In this document: piece after piece, positions 1,585 to 23,313 of the stretch
Layout: every line of letters begins with the position of its first letter
Numbering within the stretch: position 1 is the first letter of the stretch
Assembly (NCBI RefSeq): GCF_003259895.1
Contig: NZ_QLME01000004.1
Span: 62,001-126,000, forward strand
Source of the DNA: Halanaerobium saccharolyticum
Lineage (GTDB): Bacteria > Bacillota > Halanaerobiia > Halanaerobiales > Halanaerobiaceae
Direction: 5' to 3'
Length of the DNA stretch: 64,000 bases
Program-made: the position numbers and the translations under genes
Notes under the pieces: generated by a model
The model's database searches: none
The model's input: the letters and a program-made list of their open reading frames with translations, nothing else
Told to the model about the DNA's origin: nothing

Positions 1585-1626
1585 TAAAAATAAAACCCTC
1601 GCACCAGAAAGAATGGTTTGAAGGTT
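1585..1626 (-). terminator. Attenuator terminator in the carAB leader
   Basis: On the minus strand the arms at 1614-1626 and 1594-1606 pair over 13 positions with two mismatches and one G-U. A T-rich tract follows. It lies between the PyrR-type hairpin and carA, as expected for the terminator of a pyr attenuator. Confidence 0.75.
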
Positions 1627-1677
1627 AAAATTGATATAGTTAGACTATAAAATGCTAAATATAGCTATACCTGTATA

Positions 1678-1710
1678 CCTTTACCAGCCTCTCTGGACTG
1701 ATTTAAAAGG
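1678..1710 (-). promoter_or_regulatory. PyrR-binding hairpin (pyrimidine attenuator)
   Basis: The minus strand contains AGTCCAGAGAGGCT inside a stem closed by CCTTT and AAAGG. This matches the conserved PyrR-binding loop of pyr operon leaders in Firmicutes. In that family, UMP-loaded PyrR stabilises the hairpin (the anti-antiterminator) and lets the downstream terminator form. The pyrR gene itself is not in the window. Confidence 0.82.
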
Positions 1711-1738
1711 AAATTATATTCTTTTATTATTGTTGTAT

Positions 1739-8356: not shown

Positions 8357-9553
8357 TTATCCTGAGCTGGCTGAATCATCACTTAACCAGTGCTCACCGG
8401 CCGTCTTTATAGCTATAGCTCCCAGAGGAGCTGTGACCACAATAGATAAAACTGCCAGGGCCAGAATCAGTTCTCCTGAAGCAACACCTGCAGCGAGAGG
8501 AATTGCACCAATTGCTGCCTGTACAGTAGCTTTAGGTGTATATGCCAGGACACAAAAGCATTTTTCTTTTAAATTAAGGTGAGTTCCAGCCAGAGAAATT
8601 ATAACTCCTATTGATCTGGCAGACAAACCAATTGCAATAATTATTAATCCAATTAAACCTGATTCAAAAGCAAGCTGAATATTCACTTCAGCTCCGATTA
8701 ATACAAATAACATTAATTCTGCAAAAACCCAAATTTTATTAAATTTAGAAGATAATCGTTTACCTAAAGCTGAATAACGATCCTGAATTACAAAACCAAT
8801 CACCATTATTCCCAATAGAGTAGCAACAGGAACAATTCCTTCTAAAAAATGCTCTAAAGAATTCATTATAATTCCAAAACTTAACAGCAGCAGTGCTTTT
8901 TTGGTATCGCGAATATGATATTTTTTGAAAATATAGATTGAAAATAAAGCAACCCCTGTTCCAAAAATAATACCCAGTAAAATAGCAATTGGTACATTTA
9001 AAATTTGTCTCAAAACATTAATCTGCTGACCTCCATAAATGCTTAAAAAAGCAGAAAAAATTGTAATCGCCACCACATCATCAACTGAGGCACCAGTTAA
9101 AATTAGAGTTGGAACTCCTTTTTTGGCTCCTTTCTGCTGGTCAATTAACGCCAGCATTTGTGGTACTACTACCGCCGGAGAAACCGCAGCAATAATAAAG
9201 GCTAAAATCCCAGCCTCTACAAATCCAAAATTAAGTAAGTAAATAGCAGCCAAAATCACAGCCGAGCCTTCCATTAAACCGGGAATAAAACTTAATTTAA
9301 CTGCCGGAATTCCCACTTTTTTTAAAGTCTCTTTTTCAATCCCCAGACCGGCCCTAATTAAAATCACAATCAAAGCAATCATTCTCAAGTCTGATGAAAT
9401 ATTTAAGATATCCTGACTGATTAAATCAAAACCATATGGACCTAATAAAATTCCAATTAAAAGCATTCCCAGTAAAGCAGGCAGCTTTAATTGATCAAAA
9501 AACCTCCCAAATAATAATGCAAATAAAATAATTAAAGCTAAACTTAAAGCCAT
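8357..9553 (-). CDS. NhaP-like cation:proton antiporter under fluoride riboswitch
   Basis: 398 residues with about 12 hydrophobic segments, spanning the cytoplasmic membrane. The Na+/H+ exchanger fold is shown by the ASVDDVVAITIF segment near residue 155, which holds the twin acidic residues of the transport site, and by PAVVVPQML just before it. There is no C-terminal nucleotide-binding domain. A fluoride aptamer with a terminator (9657-9752) lies upstream in the same direction. Antiporters of this type are known members of fluoride regulons, so it probably helps cells resist fluoride, either directly or by handling protons or sodium. An AAAGGAG site precedes the ATG. Confidence 0.88.
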   Translation of the reverse strand: MALSLALIILFALLFGRFFDQLKLPALLGMLLIGILLGPYGFDLISQDILNISSDLRMIALIVILIRAGLGIEKETLKKVGIPAVKLSFIPGLMEGSAVILAAIYLLNFGFVEAGILAFIIAAVSPAVVVPQMLALIDQQKGAKKGVPTLILTGASVDDVVAITIFSAFLSIYGGQQINVLRQILNVPIAILLGIIFGTGVALFSIYIFKKYHIRDTKKALLLLSFGIIMNSLEHFLEGIVPVATLLGIMVIGFVIQDRYSALGKRLSSKFNKIWVFAELMLFVLIGAEVNIQLAFESGLIGLIIIAIGLSARSIGVIISLAGTHLNLKEKCFCVLAYTPKATVQAAIGAIPLAAGVASGELILALAVLSIVVTAPLGAIAIKTAGEHWLSDDSASSG

Positions 9554-9590
9554 ACAATCATCTCTCCTTTGATTGTGAATTTATTCTTCT

Positions 9591-9626
9591 GTACCAGGTA
9601 CAAAACGGTCGTTTTGTACCTGGTAC
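9591..9626. repeat. Perfect 17-bp inverted repeat
   Basis: The arms 9591-9607 and 9610-9626 are exact reverse complements around a two-base centre. Each arm carries the 11-mer GTACC(A/T)GGTAC, which is itself nearly palindromic. The repeat lies between the fluoride switch terminator and the antiporter start. A similar GTACC-rich palindrome occurs at 35302-35344. Confidence 0.9.
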
Positions 9627-9656: not shown

Positions 9657-9706
9657 ATAAAAAAAGCTCCCATCTAGATAGGGTAATCCCTAAATAGATA
9701 GGAGCC
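9657..9706 (-). terminator. Expression-platform terminator of the fluoride riboswitch
   Basis: The minus strand forms a long hairpin (GCTCC...GGGAGC outer stem, TAGGG...CCCTA inner stem) followed by a run of T at 9659-9665. Its 5' arm uses the GGCTCCTATC end of the aptamer. The aptamer fold and the terminator therefore exclude each other, and fluoride should switch the gene on. Confidence 0.82.
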
Positions 9707-9752
9707 ATCAACTGACATTCCCGCCAGTGGTTATATGGGGAGCTCCATCCCC
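9697..9752 (-). ncRNA. Fluoride riboswitch (crcB motif)
   Basis: Read on the minus strand, the RNA begins GGGGATGGAGCTCCCC, then AACCACTGGC, a short loop, GTCAGT and TGATGGCTCCTA. These are the conserved parts of the crcB/fluoride aptamer. The GGGG/CCCC stem, the ACTG/CAGT stem and the GGAGC/GCTCC pairing can all form. The first aptamer base follows directly on the stop codon of the aminotransferase gene. The antiporter downstream is the only gene it can control. Confidence 0.88.
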
Positions 9753-10889
9753 TTAATTCATTTCATTTACAAATATCTTATGTAATTCTACATTTGGATC
9801 AAAACCAAGTTCTCTCAGGCTGTGATCAAATGCTTTTAAAGTTCGATATAACTTTTCTTCATAACAATTTTCTCCCATATGCCCAATTCTGATTAATTTA
9901 TCTTCAAACTCTCCCAGGGAAGCCGCAATCATTACATTATGGCTTTCTGTCATCAGTTGATTTAGTTCCTGATAGCTAATACCCTCCGGTATTACAATTG
10001 CAGTAACTGTATCAGAATGTCCATTTTCGGAATATAAATTAAGATTGGATTGTTTAATTGCTTCTCTGACAGCCGCAGCAATTTTGCTGTGGCGCTCAAA
10101 AACTTCCTTATCCGCCAGCCACTTATCTAAAGCTGCATCCAAAGCATAAATATCACTTACTGCCTGAGTATAGGGAAAATACTTTTCTTCATACCAGTTC
10201 TGCCAGAGCTGCAAATTGGTATAATAGCCCCTGACAGCAGTCTCTCTATTATTAACTGTCTCCCAGGCTGCATTACTAACACTCATAAAAGTTAATCCCG
10301 GAGGAACTGATAGACATTTTTGAGAACCGCCAAGAATTATGTCAATTCCCCATTTATCTACCTCTATTGGGACACCTCCAATTGCAGAAACAGAGTCTAC
10401 AACTGATAAAATATTATATTTATTTAATAAATTAGTAATCTCTTCAGCATTATTTATTACTCCAGTTGGAGTTTCACAGTGAACAAAGGTAGCAAATTTA
10501 AAATCATTTTCTGCTGCCAGCTTCGATTTTAATTTATCTATATCAATCTCTTTATCATATGGGAATTCCCATCTTACAACATCTGCTCCATAAAGATCAG
10601 CAAAATCTGCGAATCCTCTCCCGAAGATTCCATTATCTAAAACTAAAACCCTATCTCCTGGTTCGATTAATGAAGCACAGGCAGATTCCAGTCCTAAAAT
10701 ACCCTCCCCACTCATAATAATCACATCATTTTTTGTTCTCATTACCTGCTGCAATTTTGAACTAACATCCAGATAAAAATCAAAAAATTCAGGATCAAGA
10801 TCAGGGTTGGTAATTTTGCGACTCATTGCCCGTCTAACTTCTTCGCTAACCTCAGTTGGACCGGGTGTCATTATTAACAAATCACTCAC
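9753..10889 (-). CDS. Class V aminotransferase (serine/alanine-glyoxylate type)
   Basis: About 378 residues. It opens with MTPGPTEVSEEVRRAMSRK, the usual start of the serine-pyruvate/alanine-glyoxylate aminotransferase branch. The PLP lysine is seen in DIILGGSQKCLSVPPGL near residue 195, and the cofactor Asp in SVVDSVSAIGG. It probably transfers amino groups between alanine or serine and glyoxylate or pyruvate; PucG-like ureidoglycine or purine roles cannot be excluded, but no purine genes are near. I chose the GTG at 10889, which has a GGGAG site nine bases upstream; the ATG at 10904 has none. The gene stands alone. Confidence 0.86.
   Translation of the reverse strand: MSDLLIMTPGPTEVSEEVRRAMSRKITNPDLDPEFFDFYLDVSSKLQQVMRTKNDVIIMSGEGILGLESACASLIEPGDRVLVLDNGIFGRGFADFADLYGADVVRWEFPYDKEIDIDKLKSKLAAENDFKFATFVHCETPTGVINNAEEITNLLNKYNILSVVDSVSAIGGVPIEVDKWGIDIILGGSQKCLSVPPGLTFMSVSNAAWETVNNRETAVRGYYTNLQLWQNWYEEKYFPYTQAVSDIYALDAALDKWLADKEVFERHSKIAAAVREAIKQSNLNLYSENGHSDTVTAIVIPEGISYQELNQLMTESHNVMIAASLGEFEDKLIRIGHMGENCYEEKLYRTLKAFDHSLRELGFDPNVELHKIFVNEMN
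9775..9802 (-). promoter_or_regulatory. Possible promoter for the fluoride-controlled antiporter
   Basis: Minus-strand TTGATC (9797-9802), 16 bases, TAAGAT (9775-9780), inside the last codons of the aminotransferase gene. It would start a transcript about 15-20 bases before the fluoride aptamer. Weak match; read-through from the aminotransferase is the alternative. Confidence 0.35.
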
Positions 10890-10904
10890 AAAAATCACTC
10901 CCAT

Positions 10905-15221: not shown

Positions 15222-15298
15222 AGGTGGCAGTCGGGCTATCATAGCTCTCAAGCCTTAGACCCCTTACTTTGCGTCACTGTTTTTCAACAATTTTGCTT
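15222..15298 (-). ncRNA. c-di-GMP-I riboswitch (GEMM-I) upstream of the FapA-type/HD-GYP operon
   Basis: The minus strand has the GEMM-I marks in order: GCAAA receptor, a hairpin ending in CAGTGACGCAAAG, GGGTCTAAGGC, then GACTGCC. No T-run terminator follows. Instead CACCTT at the aptamer's 3' edge (15221-15226) is complementary to the AAGGTG ribosome site of the FapA-type gene (15178-15183). Control of translation is therefore likely. Confidence 0.85.
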
Positions 15299-15307
15299 TT
15301 CTTTTAT

Positions 15308-23214: not shown

Positions 23215-23284
23215 TTTCTGCAGCCTGGCAGTCTCAGTAAGACCCATAGCTTTGCGTCACTGCTTTACAGCAGTTTTGCCCGTA
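23215..23284 (-). ncRNA. c-di-GMP-I riboswitch (GEMM-I) upstream of the EAL gene
   Basis: Minus-strand order: GGGCAAAAC, hairpin CTGCTGTAAAGCAG, TGACGCAAAGCTATGGGTCT, then GACTGCCAGGCTGC. These are the conserved GEMM-I elements, including the GCAAA tetraloop receptor and the ACGCAAAG ligand-pocket strand. A terminator follows six bases later, so control is by transcription termination. Confidence 0.9.
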
Positions 23285-23313
23285 GTTGAAATATATTTTC
23301 TTTTAGTAATTAT

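Follow-up and report, generated by a model that had tools for sequence, protein, structure and literature searches.

A fluoride riboswitch and, next downstream, an antiporter gene of the animal-NHA-like CPA2 type were identified in a 64,000-nucleotide stretch of the Halanaerobium saccharolyticum genome (hereafter the window). We consider it slightly better than even (probability about 0.5) that this ON-switch and its antiporter constitute the main fluoride defence of the cell, with the antiporter replacing Fluc or CLC-F and likely acting by cation/proton exchange. Antiporters have been treated as accessory pH regulators though they are the second most common fluoride-riboswitch target. A family that is almost always switched, and that never occurs with Fluc among 61 relatives, would offer a clear test of stand-alone protection and of the ion that is moved.

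The aptamer occupies positions 9692 to 9761 of the minus strand, where cmscan aligned the full RF01734 model (1-64) with 49.3 bits against a gathering threshold of 34, corresponding to E-values of 1.2e-10 over the window and 3.7e-13 over a 201-base stretch. It is the sole fluoride riboswitch in the 3.3-Mb genome. An earlier note on this DNA had proposed a complete crcB-motif aptamer, quoting three sequence strings for it, and had named scoring of the minus strand with the Rfam crcB covariance model as the check; all three strings were found in the window and the match to that model is significant. The first helix pairs GGGG (9752-9749) with CCCC (9740-9737), the hairpin P3 spans 9728-9712, and the pseudoknot, assigned from sequence by analogy with published switches (PMC11077080), joins the loop GGAGCU (9746-9741) to GGCUCC (9706-9701) with one U.G wobble, all on the minus strand. 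The pseudoknot wobble pair has been found by experiment to be critical in transcriptional fluoride switches (PMC11077080).

The aptamer passes directly into an intrinsic terminator, its expression platform (9659..9706, minus strand), formed by a hairpin at approximately 9706-9665 that reads GGCUCCUAUCUA...UAGAUGGGAGCU and is followed by U7 (9659-9665). This hairpin is present in the minimum-free-energy fold (-43.3 kcal/mol, z -4.18, with none of 200 shuffles equally stable). As the earlier note had anticipated, the terminator competes for the 3' strand of the aptamer: GGCUCC at 9706-9701 is both the 3' pseudoknot strand and the base of the terminator's 5' arm, and the terminator is built on the same pseudoknot strand in every relative folded. 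Such a shared strand has been demonstrated experimentally for the Bacillus cereus and Thermotoga petrophila fluoride switches (PMC11077080). Read from its sequence, the combination of aptamer and terminator is the standard fluoride ON-switch design, and this part of the mechanism is close to certain as judged from the anatomy and the known biochemistry. We infer that this aptamer binds fluoride and that the gene is induced; with fluoride present, the Mg-F-bound aptamer would keep the pseudoknot strand and allow read-through into the antiporter gene.

Upstream lies a class-V aminotransferase gene (9753..10904, minus strand; PF00266), with synteny in eight genus members. Its TAA stop codon occupies 9755-9753 and the GGGG of the first aptamer helix starts at the next base, 9752, so that the aptamer does begin at the stop codon of an unrelated gene, as had been noted earlier. 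Of eight genus members aligned, seven show the same contact and one (G007) has a single base more. The junction leaves no space for a further terminator or promoter, and no separate terminator lies between gene and aptamer. A promoter embedded in the 3' end of the aminotransferase gene was considered and is not claimed: synonymous conservation across its final 15 codons is unremarkable (0.73, with a mean of 0.68; rank 111 of 369), and the best site matches only approximately 8-9 of 12 positions by eye. Most simply read, the switch would also end the aminotransferase transcript, and fluoride would make the antiporter a read-through product.

A Shine-Dalgarno-like site, AAAGGAGAG (9561..9569, minus strand), precedes the antiporter ATG at 9553, and its GGAGA is conserved among genus members retaining the antiporter gene. 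Between the terminator and the ribosome site lies an interspersed palindrome, GTACCAGGTACAAAACGGTCGTTTTGTACCTGGTAC (9591..9626), whose half-site has 56 matches genome-wide and none in a reversed control. Being a genome-wide repeat that is absent or different in several relatives, it was rejected as a component of the switch; sister species carry other palindromes or none at the same spot, and the element looks like a recent REP-like insertion. Elsewhere in the window are two c-di-GMP-I riboswitches (15223-15307 and 23216-23290, minus strand) and a PyrR binding site (1586-1714, minus strand).

The gene next downstream of the switch (8357..9553, minus strand) encodes a 398-residue protein matching PF00999 (Na_H_Exchanger, E 5e-40), in agreement with the earlier note that the controlled gene is an antiporter, neither crcB nor CLC-F. 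That note had called it NhaP-like (CPA1), which did not hold: NHA2 is nearest by both sequence and fold, and the protein carries DD rather than ND. A PDB sequence search returned NHA2/SLC9B2 only (E 2e-43), and human and bison NHA2 were the top fold matches of the predicted model (mean pLDDT 76; Foldseek 3.6e-17 with TM 0.83, range 0.81-0.85). The key residues are E95, SPAV at 125-128, D158-D159, R313 and K341, of which D158-D159, R313 and E95 align with the NHA2 DD pair, R432 and E215. The protein thus has DD in TM5, arginine at CPA motif position 8 and glutamate on TM3, the last being a marker of the animal-NHA-like CPA2 clade (E215 in NHA2; PMC6181914). An NhaP assignment was assessed by arginine at motif position 8 together with glutamate at position 5, which lies four residues ahead of position 6; the glutamate is absent, T154 standing four residues before D158 and being T or A among relatives. 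The NCBIfam K+/H+ antiporter (NhaP2-type) model matched weakly, with 67.9 against a cut-off of 355. On sequence, residue signature and predicted fold, the antiporter is assigned to the animal-NHA-like (SLC9B2/NHA2) CPA2 group.

A 2024 review ranks Na+/H+ antiporters second in frequency among riboswitch-associated classes and attributes their linkage to fluoride riboswitches to Baker et al. 2012 (PMC11139923); their occurrence in fluoride regulons, stated in the earlier note, is already known. Aptamer presence was scored here from Rfam results, a pattern of our own having been discarded as too strict. Among 61 relatives, RF01734 gave 44 fluoride-riboswitch matches, and reading of the downstream genes placed 31 of them upstream of this NHA-like antiporter family and four upstream of crcB; the 31 include G006, in which the switch lies approximately 1.8 kb upstream of the antiporter with another reading frame between. 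Of the remaining matches, some precede Na+/H+ exchangers outside this family, dynamin-like GTPases or unidentified genes, and others meet a contig end or have nothing after them. When 84,980 species genomes were scanned, 40 relatives of the antiporter were recovered, and beyond the Halanaerobium group an aptamer was found upstream in 27 of 30 evaluable genomes (Clostridia, Mollicutes and Petrotoga). For non-redundant DD-type antiporter genes the proportion was 50/56 evaluable, the linked genes ranging over Halanaerobiia, Clostridia, Mollicutes and Thermotogota. The family groups on the tree and is separated from paralogues by score (at least 336 bits for full-length members versus at most 80), and nearly all members keep the NHA2 cation-site residues (SPAV, DD, R, K and E). 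These sequence comparisons indicate a family almost dedicated to fluoride control.

Several variants of the arrangement were encountered. A second fluoride-switched subfamily (L175, 1501-3126) carries a universal stress protein (Usp) domain at its C-terminus and has SD at the place of the DD pair, so that members of the family may differ in ion coupling. Tandem antiporter copies with a riboswitch between them occur at L123 (1574-4206) and L116 (2159-4833), and the switched copy of Natronincola has EA for DD. A decayed switch was seen in G012 (L164, upstream of 1483), where only the 5' half of the aptamer precedes an intact antiporter gene, and an orphan switch in G005 (L048), which retains the aptamer, terminator and palindrome and has lost the antiporter, with no other copy in the genome. 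Dynamin-like GTPase genes are unusual switch targets in G002 (L049, 2296-4125) and G043 (L054, a 596-aa open reading frame), the riboswitch of L054 scoring below gathering. Fluoride riboswitches also precede distant Na+/H+ exchanger paralogues in G045 (L052, below the gathering score) and G043 (L013), which suggests repeated recruitment of CPA proteins.

Fluc/crcB (PF02537) was not found in the 3.3-Mb genome by a search that was positive in 10 of 14 control genomes, and the one ClC of this genome reads GRIGP and GGIFSP, with none of the CLC-F signatures GNNLI/GMGLI, GREGT/V and GEVTP (PMC11139923). Among the 61 relatives, a set of related and therefore not independent genomes, some incomplete and with exporter E-values that depend on Pfam models, the antiporter was found in 33, crcB in nine and both in none (P 4e-4 unstratified, 8e-4 stratified by family). 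The two genes alternate inside two genera (g1 and g21) and five families (f6, f7, f8, f9 and f11), and G011, a genome of the same genus as the window, carries crcB and lacks the antiporter. No CLC-F signature was detected among the divergent ClC genes of the relatives. Riboswitch, family antiporter and crcB were all lacking in 16 of the 61, and a missing exporter is therefore tolerated in this class. A further 31 external antiporter genomes included two with Fluc and four, all Clostridia, with a CLC-F-like gene reading GNDLI, GREGA and GEVIP (an exporter in 6/31 altogether). An exporter has been found in >85% of reference strains, with Fluc and CLC-F usually excluding each other (PMC11139923). 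That baseline overstates the depletion of Fluc in Clostridia, because Fluc was found in only 25 of 98 relatives of Alkaliphilus, and 2/31 versus 25/98 is a weaker contrast. The external genomes are accordingly supporting and not decisive, the within-family exclusion being the stronger evidence. Our search of the open literature, which did not include the 2012 primary riboswitch paper, returned no report of antiporter/Fluc exclusion or of a third class.

Fluoride that enters as HF builds up inside the cell as F- in proportion to delta-pH. We infer both protection by the antiporter and the identity of the ion moved: most likely it would be a cation/proton exchanger, carrying Na+ out and H+ in. 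Since F- accumulation tracks delta-pH, an antiporter bringing H+ in would discharge the HF trap, lowering the delta-pH that holds HF as F- so that fluoride would leave as HF; alternatively, the antiporter may act once HF has entered, by resetting pH and Na+. A lower internal pH is tolerated by fluoride-acclimated yeast, and the same review proposes the opposite sense for antiporter action, that of countering acidification (PMC11139923). Cation/proton exchange appears likelier than direct export of fluoride because the cation-site residues are kept, in nearly all members of the family, and anion sites are not known to have been reported for the CPA superfamily. Direct export, by F-/H+ antiport or coupled to cations, would make the clade a third exporter family beside Fluc and CLC-F; near-dedicated fluoride control over several phyla, an exclusion with Fluc resembling that between Fluc and CLC-F (PMC11139923), the SD of one switched subfamily and the EA of the Natronincola copy are in its favour, and we nevertheless judge it improbable. 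The broader proposal, in which NHA-like CPA2 antiporters under fluoride-switch control make up a third stand-alone resistance class that replaces Fluc/CLC-F and may itself export fluoride, is tentative and, as it stands, unlikely. Were fluoride the ion moved, a third exporter class would be added; were it cations, a shifted proton balance would suffice to empty the HF trap.

The current textbook view is that such an antiporter is an accessory, aiding pH and Na+ homeostasis only, and pH homeostasis is the role that the review gives to Na+/H+ antiporters linked to riboswitches (PMC11139923). The absence of an exporter would then be coincidental, or an unrecognised exporter would substitute, and both the 16 relatives without any of these genes and the patchy presence of Fluc in Clostridia are consistent with this. 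An accessory gene would be expected alongside exporters, however, whereas the antiporter was never found beside Fluc in the 61 relatives and alternates with it within genera and families, and we regard a purely accessory role as unlikely here. The near-dedicated family, the lack of overlap with Fluc and a genome without Fluc and CLC-F argue that the antiporter is probably a stand-alone fluoride-defence transporter in this organism and not the accessory of an exporter. It is very improbable that the aptamer has decayed or fallen silent and that its linkage to the gene is accidental: decay does happen, as in G012 and G005, but this aptamer is full-length and high-scoring with its terminator overlap and wobble pair intact, and the riboswitch-antiporter linkage is kept across several phyla.

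The riboswitch and its arrangement before an antiporter are of a kind already known. The crcB switches of B. cereus and T. petrophila (RF01734; PMC11077080) likewise have a pseudoknotted aptamer overlapping an intrinsic terminator, with six pseudoknot pairs including one U.G wobble; in contrast to these, the Halanaerobium aptamer adjoins the stop codon of the upstream gene without an independent terminator, and its target gene encodes an antiporter and not CrcB. Human and bison NHA2 (SLC9B2; PDB 7b4l and 7p1i) share the fold, DD, TM10 arginine, TM3 glutamate and SPAV with the antiporter, which differs in being bacterial, fluoride-controlled and approximately 33% identical in structural alignment. 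Fluc/CrcB and CLC-F resemble the antiporter in lying downstream of fluoride riboswitches and in their mutually exclusive distribution, but have unrelated folds and are absent from this genome. Relative to the fluoride-switched Na+/H+ antiporters already known, which have the same arrangement, the present analysis adds the assignment to the NHA clade, the near-constant switching and the exclusion with Fluc. The new point suggested by these sequence data, and a testable one, is an antiporter that would substitute for Fluc/CLC-F.
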